The translations under genes were made by a program, and so were the position numbers. Positions 17,473-64,000 of a stretch of 64,000 nucleotides of DNA are shown here, one piece after another (position 1 is the stretch's first letter; every line of letters starts with the position of its first letter). Below the pieces are notes generated by a model that saw only the letters and a program-made list of their open reading frames with translations, was not told the origin of the DNA and did not search any database. Origin of the DNA: Halorubrum rubrum (lineage in GTDB: Archaea > Halobacteriota > Halobacteria > Halobacteriales > Haloferacaceae); assembly GCF_024494685.1 (NCBI RefSeq), contig NZ_JANHDM010000002.1, forward strand, positions 310,001 to 374,000, written 5' to 3'.

Positions 17473-17520
17473 TCCATCGGCGACAGCCGTGATGAGTATC
17501 GGCTCATCCTCGTTCTCCAC

Positions 17521-17665
17521 CTCGCCTCTCTCCATCTCGCTTCTCTCCACCTCGCCTCTCTCCATCTCGCTTCTCTCCACCTCGCCTCTCTCCATCTCGC
17601 TTCTCTCCACCTCGCCTCTCTCCATCTCGCTTCTCTCCACCTCGCCTCTCTCCATCTCGCCTCTC
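17521..17665. repeat. 15-bp polypyrimidine tandem repeat (about 9.7 units) beside the origin
   Basis: Alternating units CTCGCCTCTCTCCAT and CTCGCTTCTCTCCAC form a 30-bp higher-order repeat present four times plus a partial fifth. The strand is about 90% pyrimidine. ORFs on both strands across it are products of the repeat (for example LHLAS repeated) and not genes. It lies immediately left of the first ORB box. Confidence 0.92.
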
Positions 17666-17671
17666 ATTCAC

Positions 17672-17701
17672 CCTCCCCCACCCCTTCGTTTCGAGTGGAA
17701 C
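17672..17701 (-). other. origin recognition box 1 (ORB)
   Basis: On the minus strand GTTCCACTCGAAACGAAGGG followed by a G-rich tail. It differs at only two positions over 21 bp from the box at 17913 and is in opposite orientation, with the G tracts pointing away from the AT-rich core. This matches the haloarchaeal ORB pattern: a dyad TTCCA..GAAA plus G-string. Confidence 0.82.
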
Positions 17702-17761
17702 GGGGAGCGGGAGTGGCGGGGTCGGTGGCGATCTCGGGGGTGGTACCGTCGTGATCTGCTC

Positions 17762-17882
17762 GAGAAAGATAGTAACTATCCATATCAAATAAAATAAACC
17801 TGCTGGACAATAATATAATTTCTCAAAGATTGTCGAGGGTACTGTTTCGAATATAGTATAATAAAACTACTGCTATCAAATA
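17762..17882. other. AT-rich duplex-unwinding element of the origin
   Basis: About 120 bp with a GC content near 30% in a 68-70% GC genome, including CATATCAAATAAAATAAACC and TATAGTATAATAAAACTAC, placed symmetrically between two inverted ORB boxes. It is the natural site for origin melting. Confidence 0.8.
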
Positions 17883-17912
17883 CCGCCCAACACCCACCCC
17901 CACCTATCGACA

Positions 17913-17943
17913 GTTCCACCCGAAATGAAGGGGTGGGGGGGTC
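17913..17943 (+). other. origin recognition box 2 (ORB)
   Basis: GTTCCACCCGAAATGAAGGG followed by GTGGGGGGGTC, the plus-strand partner of ORB 1, with its G tract pointing toward orc1. Confidence 0.82.
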
Positions 17944-18142
17944 GAGTGAAAGATACGAAAATGTTACTTCGAAGATGGAAGTGCGCGACGACACTAGTCC
18001 GACGAGAATACCGACGACGGGAACATCCATCAGACGATACGATGTGAACGCGACGTGACGGAGAAATGAGATAATTCGAGGGGATGAGTCGAGGAGACAC
18101 GTCGAGGAACGGAACCAGATGCCGGTCGATCGCCGACCGTGT

Positions 18143-18184
18143 CCGTCAACTTCGGACCGTCAACTCCGAACCGTCAACTCCGGA
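18143..18184. repeat. 14-bp tandem repeat, three units, in the origin region
   Basis: CCGTCAACTTCGGA, CCGTCAACTCCGAA and CCGTCAACTCCGGA in direct succession, between the core origin and orc1. No coding role is apparent. Confidence 0.85.
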
Positions 18185-18406
18185 ACCCGATCGTCTCTGA
18201 AGTCGGCGGTCCGCGAGTCGTGGATACGGCCGGTGTATGATCAACCTTGACGCACTCGACGCGCACGAAGCGGACACGAAATCCGTACGAACCCCGTGCG
18301 AAGCGCCATCAACTGACCGTCGGTAGCCGTGACGGGGGACCGTTTCAACTCCAGAGAGGAACATTTTTGTACCTCCTCTTCGTCCGGTTCGACTGTATCA
18401 ACTGGA

Positions 18407-18432
18407 CGTGGTCGGCACCGAATCCGACCACG
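18407..18432. promoter_or_regulatory. perfect 9-bp inverted repeat upstream of orc1
   Basis: CGTGGTCGG-CACCGAAT-CCGACCACG, centred about 88 bp before the orc1 ATG, at or near its promoter. It does not match the ORB consensus or the TetR operator, so it may bind a different protein or form a hairpin. Confidence 0.5.
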
Positions 18433-18481
18433 GGTTCGTGTTTCAGACTGGAGACGGCCTAAACCCGCATTTACGACGAAG

Positions 18482-18505
18482 GTTTCCACCTGAAACGGAG
18501 GGGTT
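18482..18505 (+). promoter_or_regulatory. ORB 3 at the orc1 start, overlapping a Shine-Dalgarno-like sequence
   Basis: GTTTCCACCTGAAACGGAGG plus GGTT, a well-conserved ORB ending two bases before the orc1 ATG. The GGAGG of the ORB G-string lies at normal ribosome-binding-site distance from the ATG (18508). The same bases could serve initiator binding, autoregulation and translation. Confidence 0.75.
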
Positions 18506-18507
18506 CA

Positions 18508-20280
18508 ATGGACGAAGGCGAGCACACGTCGGAGGTCAACGACGACACCACACCGGCCGAGAGCGACGGATCGGGCGACGACGCATCCGATGATAGCGAC
18601 GGTCCGACGGAATCGCCATCACCGGCATCTCCATCGGCACCGTCGTTGGATCGAACCGAATCGGACCGAACCGAACCCAACTCCGACGCACACGACGAGA
18701 GCGGCTCCGAGTTCGCTTCCGGCAACGATGTCGACATGGACCCCGTCGCGTCCGACGATTCGGATCGAACTCCCGAAGCCGGATCCGAAACGTCGGGGCT
18801 CGGGAACGGCGGTCGCGACCGCTCGTCGCCCGACGTCGACTTCGACGGCGTCGTCCTCGACGACGGTGACGACGACAATCAGGGACTGTTCGACGACCTT
18901 CTCTCCGGCGAGCCGATATTCGAGAACAAGGAGGTCCTCCGTCCGTCGTACACTCCCCACGAGCTCCCCCACCGAAACGACCAGATCAACCGGATGGCGA
19001 CGATCCTCGTCTCCGCGCTCCGCGGTGAGACTCCCTCCAACATCCTCATCTACGGGAAAACGGGCACCGGCAAGACCGCCTCGGCGAAGTTCGTCTCGCA
19101 AGAGCTCGAATCGACCTCTCAAAAATACGACGTTCCCTGCGAGGTCGAGTACATCAACTGCGAGGTGACCGACACGCAGTATCGTGTCCTCGCCCAGCTC
19201 GCGAACACGTTCATCGAGGAGAACCAGACCGTCATCGCCGACCGGCTCGCCCGGCTCGAGAAGCTCCGGGCGGACGCGCGGGAAAAGACGGCGGATGCGA
19301 CCCAGGATGCCGCCGCGCTCGCCGACACCGAGTTCGATTCGATCGCCGAACTGGACGACCGAATCGACACGCTGGAAGCCGACGCCGAGGAGATGGAGGA
19401 GGTCCCGATGACGGGGTGGCCGACCGACCGCGTCTACTCGACGTTCTTCGAGGCGGTCGACTACCACGAGCGCGTGGTCGTGATCATGCTCGACGAGATC
19501 GACAAGCTCGTCGAGAAGAGCGGCGACGACACCCTGTATAACCTCTCGCGGATGAACTCCGAGCTCGACAACTCCCGCATCTCGATCATGGGGATCTCGA
19601 ACGACCTGAAGTTCACCGACTTCCTCGATCCGCGGGTCAAATCCAGCCTCGGCGAGGAGGAGATCGTCTTCCCGCCGTACGACGCGAACCAGCTCCGGGA
19701 CATCCTCCAGCACCGCGCCGACATCGCGTTCAAGGGAGACGCGCTCACCGACGACGTGATCCCGCTGTGTGCGGCCTTCGCCGCCCAGGAACACGGGGAC
19801 GCGCGTCGCGCGCTCGATCTCCTCCGGACCGCTGGCGAACTCGCGGAGCGCTCTCAGGCCGAGATCGTCGCCGAGAAGCACGTCCGACAGGCCCAGGACA
19901 AGATCGAGCTCGACCGCGTCGTCGAGGTCGTCCGAACCCTGCCGACTCAGAGCAAGATCGTCCTGTTCGCCGTGATCCTCCTCGAGAAGAACGGCGTCCA
20001 CAACATCAACACCGGCGAGGTGTTCAACATCTACAAGCGGCTCTGTGAGGAGATCGACGCCGACGTGCTCACCCAGCGGCGCGTCACCGACCTCATCAGC
20101 GAGCTCGACATGCTGGGGATCGTCAACGCGGTCGTCGTCTCGAAGGGACGGTACGGTCGAACCAAGGAGATGGGCCTCTCCGTCCCCGTCGAAGAGACCG
20201 AGGCGGTCCTCCTGTCAGACTCGCGGCTCGGCGACATCGAGAACGCACAGCCGTTCGTTCAGGCCCGCTTCGACAACTGA
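18508..20280 (+). CDS. orc1: Orc1/Cdc6 replication initiator (590 aa)
   Basis: AAA+ initiator that binds ORB boxes and loads the MCM helicase. A highly acidic, Ser/Asp-rich N-terminal extension (about 1-130) precedes the conserved domain starting LLSGEPIFENKEVLRPSYTP. Walker A GKTGTGKT is at 183-190, Walker B VVIMLDEIDKL is near 322-332, and a C-terminal winged helix follows (about 490-590, including QRRVTDLISELDMLGIV). A coiled-coil-like insert (LEKLRADAREKTADATQ) lies between. It sits directly downstream of the ORB/AT-rich region described above, so it is the origin-linked Orc1 rather than an accessory paralogue. Confidence 0.95.
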   Translation: MDEGEHTSEVNDDTTPAESDGSGDDASDDSDGPTESPSPASPSAPSLDRTESDRTEPNSDAHDESGSEFASGNDVDMDPVASDDSDRTPEAGSETSGLGNGGRDRSSPDVDFDGVVLDDGDDDNQGLFDDLLSGEPIFENKEVLRPSYTPHELPHRNDQINRMATILVSALRGETPSNILIYGKTGTGKTASAKFVSQELESTSQKYDVPCEVEYINCEVTDTQYRVLAQLANTFIEENQTVIADRLARLEKLRADAREKTADATQDAAALADTEFDSIAELDDRIDTLEADAEEMEEVPMTGWPTDRVYSTFFEAVDYHERVVVIMLDEIDKLVEKSGDDTLYNLSRMNSELDNSRISIMGISNDLKFTDFLDPRVKSSLGEEEIVFPPYDANQLRDILQHRADIAFKGDALTDDVIPLCAAFAAQEHGDARRALDLLRTAGELAERSQAEIVAEKHVRQAQDKIELDRVVEVVRTLPTQSKIVLFAVILLEKNGVHNINTGEVFNIYKRLCEEIDADVLTQRRVTDLISELDMLGIVNAVVVSKGRYGRTKEMGLSVPVEETEAVLLSDSRLGDIENAQPFVQARFDN

Positions 20281-20305: not shown

Positions 20306-20343
20306 GGCTCACGCGGCAACGGAAGGCTCACGTGGCAACGGAA
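20306..20343. repeat. 19-bp tandem duplication spanning the signal peptidase stop codon
   Basis: GGCTCACGCGGCAACGGAA (20306-20324) and GGCTCACGTGGCAACGGAA (20325-20343) abut with one mismatch. The right copy holds the stop codon complement TCA at 20328-20330. Confidence 0.9.
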
Positions 20344-21275
20344 TCGATCGTCGGCGATCCGACCACCGGCGAACCGATCGCCGACGAACCGACCGTCACG
20401 CTCTGTGATCCGATCCCCTCGATCCCGAATCCGGTTCCCGGCGACACGACGATCGCGCCGAGTACGTCGCTCACTTCCGCTTGGCCGGTCGTGATCAGCC
20501 GAACGTATCCGAGGTACGGCACCCGGACCCTGGCGACCCCGGTCACCCACTCGGCGGCGACGGGTTCGGCGAGCCCGTTGGCCTGGTCGTACTGGCGGTT
20601 GTTGTCGCCGAGCGTGACGAACCCCGCGTGTGGCGCGGGACAGTTCCGGAGTTCCTCACAGTCGTCGGCGTCGTGGTATCGGTCGTCGGCCCGATCGTAC
20701 CAGTTCTCGCCCTCCTCGACGTGAAACATCGCGCGGTGGATGATCGGCGACGCCTGTCTACCCGGCGGCTGATAGATCACGACCGATCCGTAGTCGCCGA
20801 AGGTTCGGTACCCGCTCTCCTCGCCGGTCTCGTGGGTCACGACGCCGAGGTCGTTGTCGGCGACGTCAGGGGCGAGCCGTCCGGGTTCGGTGACGAACAC
20901 CAGGTCGCCGGTGTTCATGTTGGGCTCCATACTCGGCGACTCGACCGCGACCATCGGGGGCCACACGCCGCTGACCGCGAACAGGATCAATCCGATCAGG
21001 AGCACGACCGCGACGCTCGAGAGCATTTCCCGGAGCCACATGAGCGGCCCTTCCATGTCGTGACGAAACCGGTAGAACAGCCCCGGACCGTCGTCGACCT
21101 CGGTCTCCGTCGTCGGATCGTCATCGATCGGGCCGGTACCGTTCGGATCACCACCGACCGGATCGTCGTAGTGGTCCTCGTTACCGACGGGATCGTCCCC
21201 GTCCGAGCCGTCGACGGCCGGATCGTCGTCGATCGGGTCGTCCCCGTTCGACGCCGGCCGATCTTCGGAGTCCAT
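20328..21275 (-). CDS. signal peptidase I, archaeal S26B type (315 aa)
   Basis: Membrane serine protease that removes Sec signal peptides at the outer face. After an acidic 75-residue cytoplasmic N-terminus rich in DDP repeats come one TM helix (about 93-112, VVLLIGLILFAVSGVWPPMV) and the catalytic serine in ESPSMEPNM. The archaeal-type His lies in SPIIHRAMF and conserved Asp residues in LGDNNRQYDQ. The C-terminal 50 residues (IGSP/VGSP/IDS repeats) are low complexity, and the gene end is tandemly duplicated. Convergent with orc1. Confidence 0.88.
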   Translation of the reverse strand: MDSEDRPASNGDDPIDDDPAVDGSDGDDPVGNEDHYDDPVGGDPNGTGPIDDDPTTETEVDDGPGLFYRFRHDMEGPLMWLREMLSSVAVVLLIGLILFAVSGVWPPMVAVESPSMEPNMNTGDLVFVTEPGRLAPDVADNDLGVVTHETGEESGYRTFGDYGSVVIYQPPGRQASPIIHRAMFHVEEGENWYDRADDRYHDADDCEELRNCPAPHAGFVTLGDNNRQYDQANGLAEPVAAEWVTGVARVRVPYLGYVRLITTGQAEVSDVLGAIVVSPGTGFGIEGIGSQSVTVGSSAIGSPVVGSPTIDSVAT

Positions 21276-24001: not shown

Positions 24002-24274
24002 GGTTCAGTTACGTGTACTACCCCCCGAACGCTGTAAAAGGATTTCGAAGCGGGTGGCGAGCCGTCCGCACGGTTCTGCCGCCGGTTCGGCCCCCGCGGA
24101 TCCGGCCGTTCGGTTCGCGTCCCGTCGCGCGAATCCGAACCCCTTCCCTTCCACTGGAACTCCCGGCGTCAACCGGGTACGAACCGCTTCGGTACGGCGA
24201 TCTCCGATCCGGCACGGGCCCGCTCGATCCGGTACGGACACTTCCGCTCCGGACCGGATCGGTCGTGCGGATCG

Positions 24275-63738: not shown

Positions 63739-64000
63739 GTGCCGCTGGAGTCGAACGCGCGGATCGTGAGCGAACTCGCCAGCCGCGGCTACAACGCCGA
63801 GCGCGAGGCCGTGACCCTCCTGGCGGGTGCCGACGACGTTGCCGCGGTGCTCGAGGCCGCCGTCGAGGCCGCTCCCGACGACGCGCTCCGGATCACGACC
63901 GACCACGTCCGCGCCGCCCTCGACGGTCGCGCGGTCGCTTCGGGTGACGCTTCGACCGATGCCTCGTCCGGACGATCGTCCGCTGTGCCAGCCAGCGACG
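63739..64000 (+). CDS. N-terminal fragment, probable DNA polymerase D small subunit (DP1)
   Basis: The first 87 codons run off the right edge. From a GTG start the peptide reads PLESNARIVSELASRGYNAE and then REAVTLLAGADD, a helical N-terminal domain like that of haloarchaeal PolD small subunits, followed by DALRITTDHVRAALDGRAVA and an Asp/Ser linker. The catalytic-like calcineurin domain would be outside the window, so identity is not proven. It lies 38 bp after mutL in the same direction, possibly in one repair/replication transcript. Confidence 0.55.
   Translation, partial: MPLESNARIVSELASRGYNAEREAVTLLAGADDVAAVLEAAVEAAPDDALRITTDHVRAALDGRAVASGDASTDASSGRSSAVPASD

Follow-up and report, generated by a model that had tools for sequence, protein, structure and literature searches.

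An oriC1-type replication origin in Halorubrum rubrum and candidate Orc1 boxes at the orc1 start and within polD1

The stretch of Halorubrum rubrum DNA analysed here (64,000 nucleotides, contig NZ_JANHDM010000002.1, positions 310,001 to 374,000; referred to below as the window) contains several ORBs between positions 17672 and 18507, directly ahead of an orc1 gene, and a further ORB lies just past its right edge, inside polD1. Is this interval a replication origin, and what are the boxes that lie outside the origin proper kept for? The second question matters because the limits on re-initiation in archaea are poorly known, and initiator sites embedded in coding sequence, as kept here in about 30 genera by DNA-level selection, are easily missed.

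The same ORB pattern was searched through 52 genomes of the genus, where the counts given below are the sites found by the strict pattern; it was matched in all 52 genomes and the backward pattern in none. Counts were also made in 80 named haloarchaeal loci, which overlap the genus genomes (about 23 of the 80 are Halorubrum) and so are not independent of the genus set. The unbiased tests are the codon test in 30 other genera, the named-locus counts and the synonymous-codon shuffles.

The origin and its neighbourhood

The origin and the adjoining gene comprise the following features, in window numbering.

17675-17701, minus strand: left origin ORB, 27 nt, with the extended G-string pointing outward (left)
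17766-17885: AT-rich core, candidate duplex unwinding element, 29% G+C against a window mean of 69%
17913-17939, plus strand: right origin ORB, 27 nt, with the extended G-string pointing outward (right)
18484-18504, plus strand: ORB3, candidate Orc1 autoregulatory site, ending 3 nt before the orc1 ATG and without an extended G-string
18508-20280, plus strand: orc1, encoding an Orc1/Cdc6-1 type initiator of 590 aa, ATG start

The initial annotation had read the interval as an oriC1-type origin in which two nearly identical inverted ORBs flank a 120-bp AT-rich core, with a third ORB adjoining the start of orc1 and the gene following directly, and this anatomy was borne out. The two inverted arms are complementary at 25 of 27 bases (93%) and have 211 nt between them, the window's lowest-G+C 120-mer begins between them at 17763, and ORB3 ends at 18504, immediately ahead of the ATG at 18508. 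Exact matches to YTCCANNNGAAAYNNRGGGGT, the ORB core, are located at 17680-17700 (minus strand), 17914-17934 (plus) and 18484-18504 (plus). When up to two mismatches are allowed, the pattern is matched four times in the 64-kb window against 0.05 matches expected, a number reached by none of 100 dinucleotide shuffles of the window. Both origin arms carry the extended G-string on their outward side, as do those of H. hispanica oriC1. The encoded Orc1 contains AAA+, Cdc6 lid and Cdc6_C domains (Pfam), and its best solved relative is Cdc6-1 of S. solfataricus (E 5e-108); the acidic extension formed by residues 1 to about 135 is not covered by the first stretch matching the solved Cdc6-1. An inverted ORB pair, 150-400 bp apart, is found in all 76 named haloarchaeal loci whose upstream sequence was long enough, four of the 80 having been dropped for having less than 1500 nt upstream of the Walker A motif. 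Based on ORB anatomy, the Cdc6-1-type Orc1 and orthology, the interval 17672-18507 is almost certainly an oriC1-type replication origin.

The origin itself is an ordinary, routine member of the well-studied haloarchaeal oriC1 family. Like the oriC1 families of Wu et al. 2012 (excerpts of PMC3528665), it belongs to the origin family that Orc1 and ORBs define, and it resembles oriC1 of H. hispanica, for which inverted ORBs with outward extended G-strings, an AT-rich region and an adjoining cdc6A/orc1 gene have been described (excerpts of PMC3936714). The H. hispanica origin differs in possessing a perfect inner G-rich inverted repeat, described as an enhancer (PMC3936714), for which the origin studied here has a weak candidate of 10 nt containing 1 mismatch. 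The test for such a repeat, whose criterion is too loose to be decisive, was passed by 41 of 104 origins, with some genomes counted twice among the 104.

It had also been proposed that the arrangement is that of active haloarchaeal origins and that it fixes the chromosomal position of the window, both of which outrun the available evidence. The positional claim is weak, as the assembly consists of 25 contigs, contains five Cdc6_C loci over the cut-off and has the usual neighbours of oriC1 rearranged. Elsewhere, the conserved gene order is gbp-cdc6-sec-polA (PMC4010727, in excerpt); here that order is not found, the left neighbour being a CoA-transferase gene and polD1 lying about 45 kb from orc1. 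Conserved neighbours are not a defining feature of oriC1 function. The ORF that follows orc1 (20328-21275) stands where other haloarchaea have the 'sec' signal peptidase gene and matches no Pfam family at E 0.001. The inversion of GC skew that the initial annotation offered as a check was not seen on the 395 kb contig, where cumulative skew peaks at 149 kb, is lowest at 394 kb and shows no extremum at 327.8 kb. Since the GC skew of Hfx. volcanii has been described as weak (PMC2841640, in excerpt), the missing turn is uninformative rather than contrary.

An intact oriC1 could be dormant in this strain, with replication starting from another Orc-linked origin, and the five Cdc6_C loci, the absence of a skew extremum at the origin and the dormant origins with intact ORBs in Hfx. 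mediterranei (excerpts of PMC4595724) would all be in keeping with this. However, we regard dormancy as unlikely, because the set of parts is complete (exact ORBs, extended G-strings, intact orc1) and because oriC1 of Hfx. volcanii has been described as the most active origin there (excerpts of PMC7776575).

Several minor repeats and sites were seen around the origin. A tandem array at 17514-17665, which starts just a few bases to the left of the left-hand ORB, can be described as 10.1 copies of a 15 bp unit (87% match) or 5.1 copies of a 30 bp unit (99%), and its unit was not found when 29 other loci of the genus were checked. Three direct repeats of 14 bp (CCGTCAACTCCGGA-like) occupy 18143-18184, in the interval separating ORB3 from the right ORB. 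The fourth ORB-like match in the window, with 2 mismatches, is located on the minus strand at 24139-24159, near an rps24e-like ORF, and sites resembling it are also present about +5 kb from orc1 in two other loci (L252 and L270).

ORBs at the orc1 start and within polD1

The ORB at the orc1 start is widely kept: it lies 3-4 nt from the orc1 ATG in 30 of 30 genus loci, and an ORB is found no more than 20 nt from a start codon in 78 of the 80 named haloarchaeal loci, a count in which every ATG, GTG or TTG in frame at that distance was accepted as a start and which may include a few chance cases. ORB3 occupies the kind of position where an autoregulatory initiator box would be looked for. Upstream of the start ORB (18439-18483 in the window), the A+T fraction calculated over 78 loci peaks about every 10 bp, at -42, -31, -22, -12 and -1 from the ORB, as if helically phased.

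The second place is polD1, whose 5' end lies at the right end of the window.

63739-64000, plus strand: 5' part of polD1, with a GTG start; it encodes DP1, the small subunit of DNA polymerase D, and continues to contig position 375355 (window numbering 65355)
Contig 374007-374027 (window numbering 64007-64027): intragenic polD1 ORB, 7 bases past the right window edge

This genome has one ORB within the polD1 coding sequence, and most relatives have one or two. In the named loci, 59 of 64 polD1 ORFs contain an ORB at no more than one mismatch, exact in 42, and five lack it at this threshold; some polD1 genes of the 30-genera set likewise have no good ORB match. The reversed pattern, used as a control, was found in none of the 64 ORFs, and 100 synonymous-codon shuffles yielded a box in a mean of 0.32 ORFs and a maximum of 2. 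Within the genus, the polD1 box is credited in 51 of 52 genomes, 31 times confirmed by flanking sequence and 20 times assigned solely by its position 1.4-2.0 kb past the orc1 end, and the one genome without a credited box (G034) is 79% complete. Often the boxes form an inverted pair, with a spacing of 57 bp in 26 of 31 pairs and 36 nt between the arms in most. The genus retains one arm alone, the forward, and in Haloferax the minus-strand polD1 sites are altered, reading TGCA instead of TCCA. The box is retained where the gene has moved away from oriC1, by about 45 kb in this genome and by 16-40 kb in seven others. In several Halorussus and Halogranum loci (L207, L280, L291, L315, L316, L321 and L327), an exact ORB is located 21-62 bp past the polD1 stop codon, and in Halorussus, where the exact ORB is 3' of polD1, the linker boxes have decayed.

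The boxes fall into two classes by the extended G-string, which is present in the named loci on 152 of 152 origin arms, in 0 of 78 start ORBs and in 9 of 81 polD1 ORBs; the initial annotation had not mentioned that ORB3 differs in this from the origin arms. H. hispanica oriC1 needs each of its extended G-strings to replicate autonomously (excerpts of PMC3936714), and because the outlying ORBs mostly lack this element they are probably not origins. The polD1 pair does share inverted ORBs with outward polarity with oriC1, which could be read as a second, auxiliary origin. Yet this reading is hardly credible, given that the spacer between the polD1 boxes is short and G+C-rich (mean 66%) and that the extended G-string is missing in 72 of the 81 boxes.

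Selection on the DNA of the polD1 boxes

A box within coding sequence may be conserved for the protein, for the RNA or for the DNA itself. In 30 other genera, represented by one genome each, the DP1 linker is otherwise unalignable and two short peptides stand out, DPSVSTG in 20 of the 30 genomes, corresponding to the reverse ORB, and (S/A)PVET(K/E)GS in 21, corresponding to the forward ORB. The motifs were chosen at the protein level and their codons read afterwards. Compared with the cores of the same genes, the codons within the motifs are strongly biased, Val being encoded by GTT in 18 of 18 cases (7% in the cores), Thr by ACT in 16 of 16 (6%), Gly by GGA in 13 of 14 (10%), Pro by CCA in 19 of 19 (5.6%), Glu by GAA in 21 of 21 (25.5%) and Gly, at its other position, by GGG in 20 of 21 (24%), although these are not independent events, as related genomes share ancestry. 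Where a residue within a motif has been replaced, the third base is mostly unchanged (GCT, ATT, AGT, GGT, GCA, CCA). The retention of rare codons was repeated in the named set, whose species are partly shared with the 30-genera set.

That rare codons are kept in the polD1 motifs even when the amino acid changes indicates that selection acts on the DNA. The conspicuousness of the two peptides within an unalignable linker could point instead to a merely conserved peptide (SPVETKGS / DPSVSTG), unrelated to DNA binding. We consider this extremely unlikely, as rare codons are retained in both sets, third bases persist across residue changes and synonymous shuffling abolishes the ORB match; unless the codon bias has some other explanation, the peptide reading fails.

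The arms of the polD1 pair are reverse complements with 36 nt between them in most pairs, and the pair might therefore be kept for an mRNA hairpin or a cruciform. Against this, the arms do not covary: at variable columns they agree in 122 of 217 cases, compared with 120.3 +/- 5.0 when arms are re-paired between genomes, and 799 of 2000 re-pairing shuffles reach the observed agreement. The genus to which this genome belongs also retains a single arm. A role of the pair as a hairpin or cruciform is thus very unlikely, and the fixed 57-bp spacing of arms that do not covary speaks for two protein-binding sites. Judged by their sequences, the outlying ORBs at the orc1 start and in polD1 are very probably real sites under selection at the DNA level.

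Possible roles of the outlying boxes

Going by homology and by published work on other archaea, we infer that Orc1 produced from the adjacent gene would use its winged helix and AAA+ domain to bind the two inverted origin ORBs, whose G-strings face outward, and that Orc1 at this pair would load MCM on the AT-rich core between the ORBs. Orc1 bound to ORB3 would cover the orc1 start and in this way damp its own synthesis. Where polD1 keeps its usual place beside orc1, its ORBs are replicated very soon after the origin fires; the polD1 ORBs would take up Orc1, so that re-initiation is limited.

In favour of titration after firing are the customary location of polD1 next to orc1 and the exact ORB just 3' of polD1 in some loci, and titration has a published precedent in oriC2D of H. 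hispanica (excerpts of PMC3936714). There, ORBs past the initiator gene have been seen as an initiator sink that restrains the origin, 11 ORBs being located in a 722-bp intergenic region belonging to oriC2/Cdc6E. The polD1 ORBs differ from oriC2D in that they number one or two, lie in coding sequence rather than as many ORBs in an intergenic region, and are of the oriC1 type. At one or two polD1 ORBs in each genome, little Orc1 could be titrated. A similar layout, in which initiator boxes occur away from the origin as well as at the promoter of the initiator gene, is found in the datA titration and dnaA autoregulation of E. coli (cited in PMC3936714, in excerpt), but the E. coli initiator belongs to another family and the circuit proposed here is read from sequence alone. 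We tentatively suggest titration or autoregulation as the function of the outlying ORBs, with a confidence that falls just short of even.

Alternatively, the polD1 boxes may be an operator, at which Orc1 bound in the 5' part of the gene would hinder RNA polymerase and tie polymerase supply to the initiator. The persistence of the box in polD1 genes that have moved 16-45 kb from oriC1 (this genome and seven others) and the fixed spacing of the polD1 pair would suit such a role, whereas a roadblock does not need the exact ORB that several Halorussus and Halogranum loci carry just 3' of polD1. An operator is a possibility that we take seriously but find rather doubtful, and feedback on Orc1 is favoured over control of polD1, though not strongly. 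Taken as a whole, it is probable that an oriC1 origin is accompanied here by non-origin boxes that are under selection at the DNA level, with negative feedback as their most likely role. The outlying boxes predict a feedback circuit that is testable in model haloarchaea.

The survey of Wu et al. 2012 searched solely the intergenic regions flanking orc/cdc6 genes (excerpts of PMC3528665), and hence the polD1 boxes would have escaped it. In the open-licence literature, as far as its available portions go, neither ORBs within polD1 nor an action of Orc1 on this gene turned up in our searches. In H. hispanica, cdc6A is very hard to delete and oriC1 is not, and the study inferred that Cdc6A has some role beyond oriC1 (excerpts of PMC3936714). 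The outlying boxes are a candidate place for such a function and a candidate reason for the difficulty of deleting cdc6A.

We lean slightly towards the view that, throughout the haloarchaea, Orc1 has a fixed class of non-origin boxes, one at its own start codon and one or two in polD1, joined by lineage-specific ones at serA and hel308/cgi121, which would link the initiator, its synthesis and the polymerase. A single ORB about 130 bp 5' of serA is present in this genome (C1:31784, L007 1501-1521) and in 35 further genus genomes. Outside the genus it was found at 1 of 30 serA loci (G071), and the serA box was rejected as a class-wide site on this count. An ORB between cgi121, which lies behind hel308, and the IMP cyclohydrolase gene occurs in 25 genus genomes; the strict pattern did not find it in this genome. 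A further ORB-like site with conserved flanks, possibly coding, is present in eight genus loci (L058, L088, L114, L126, L128, L129, L140 and L146).
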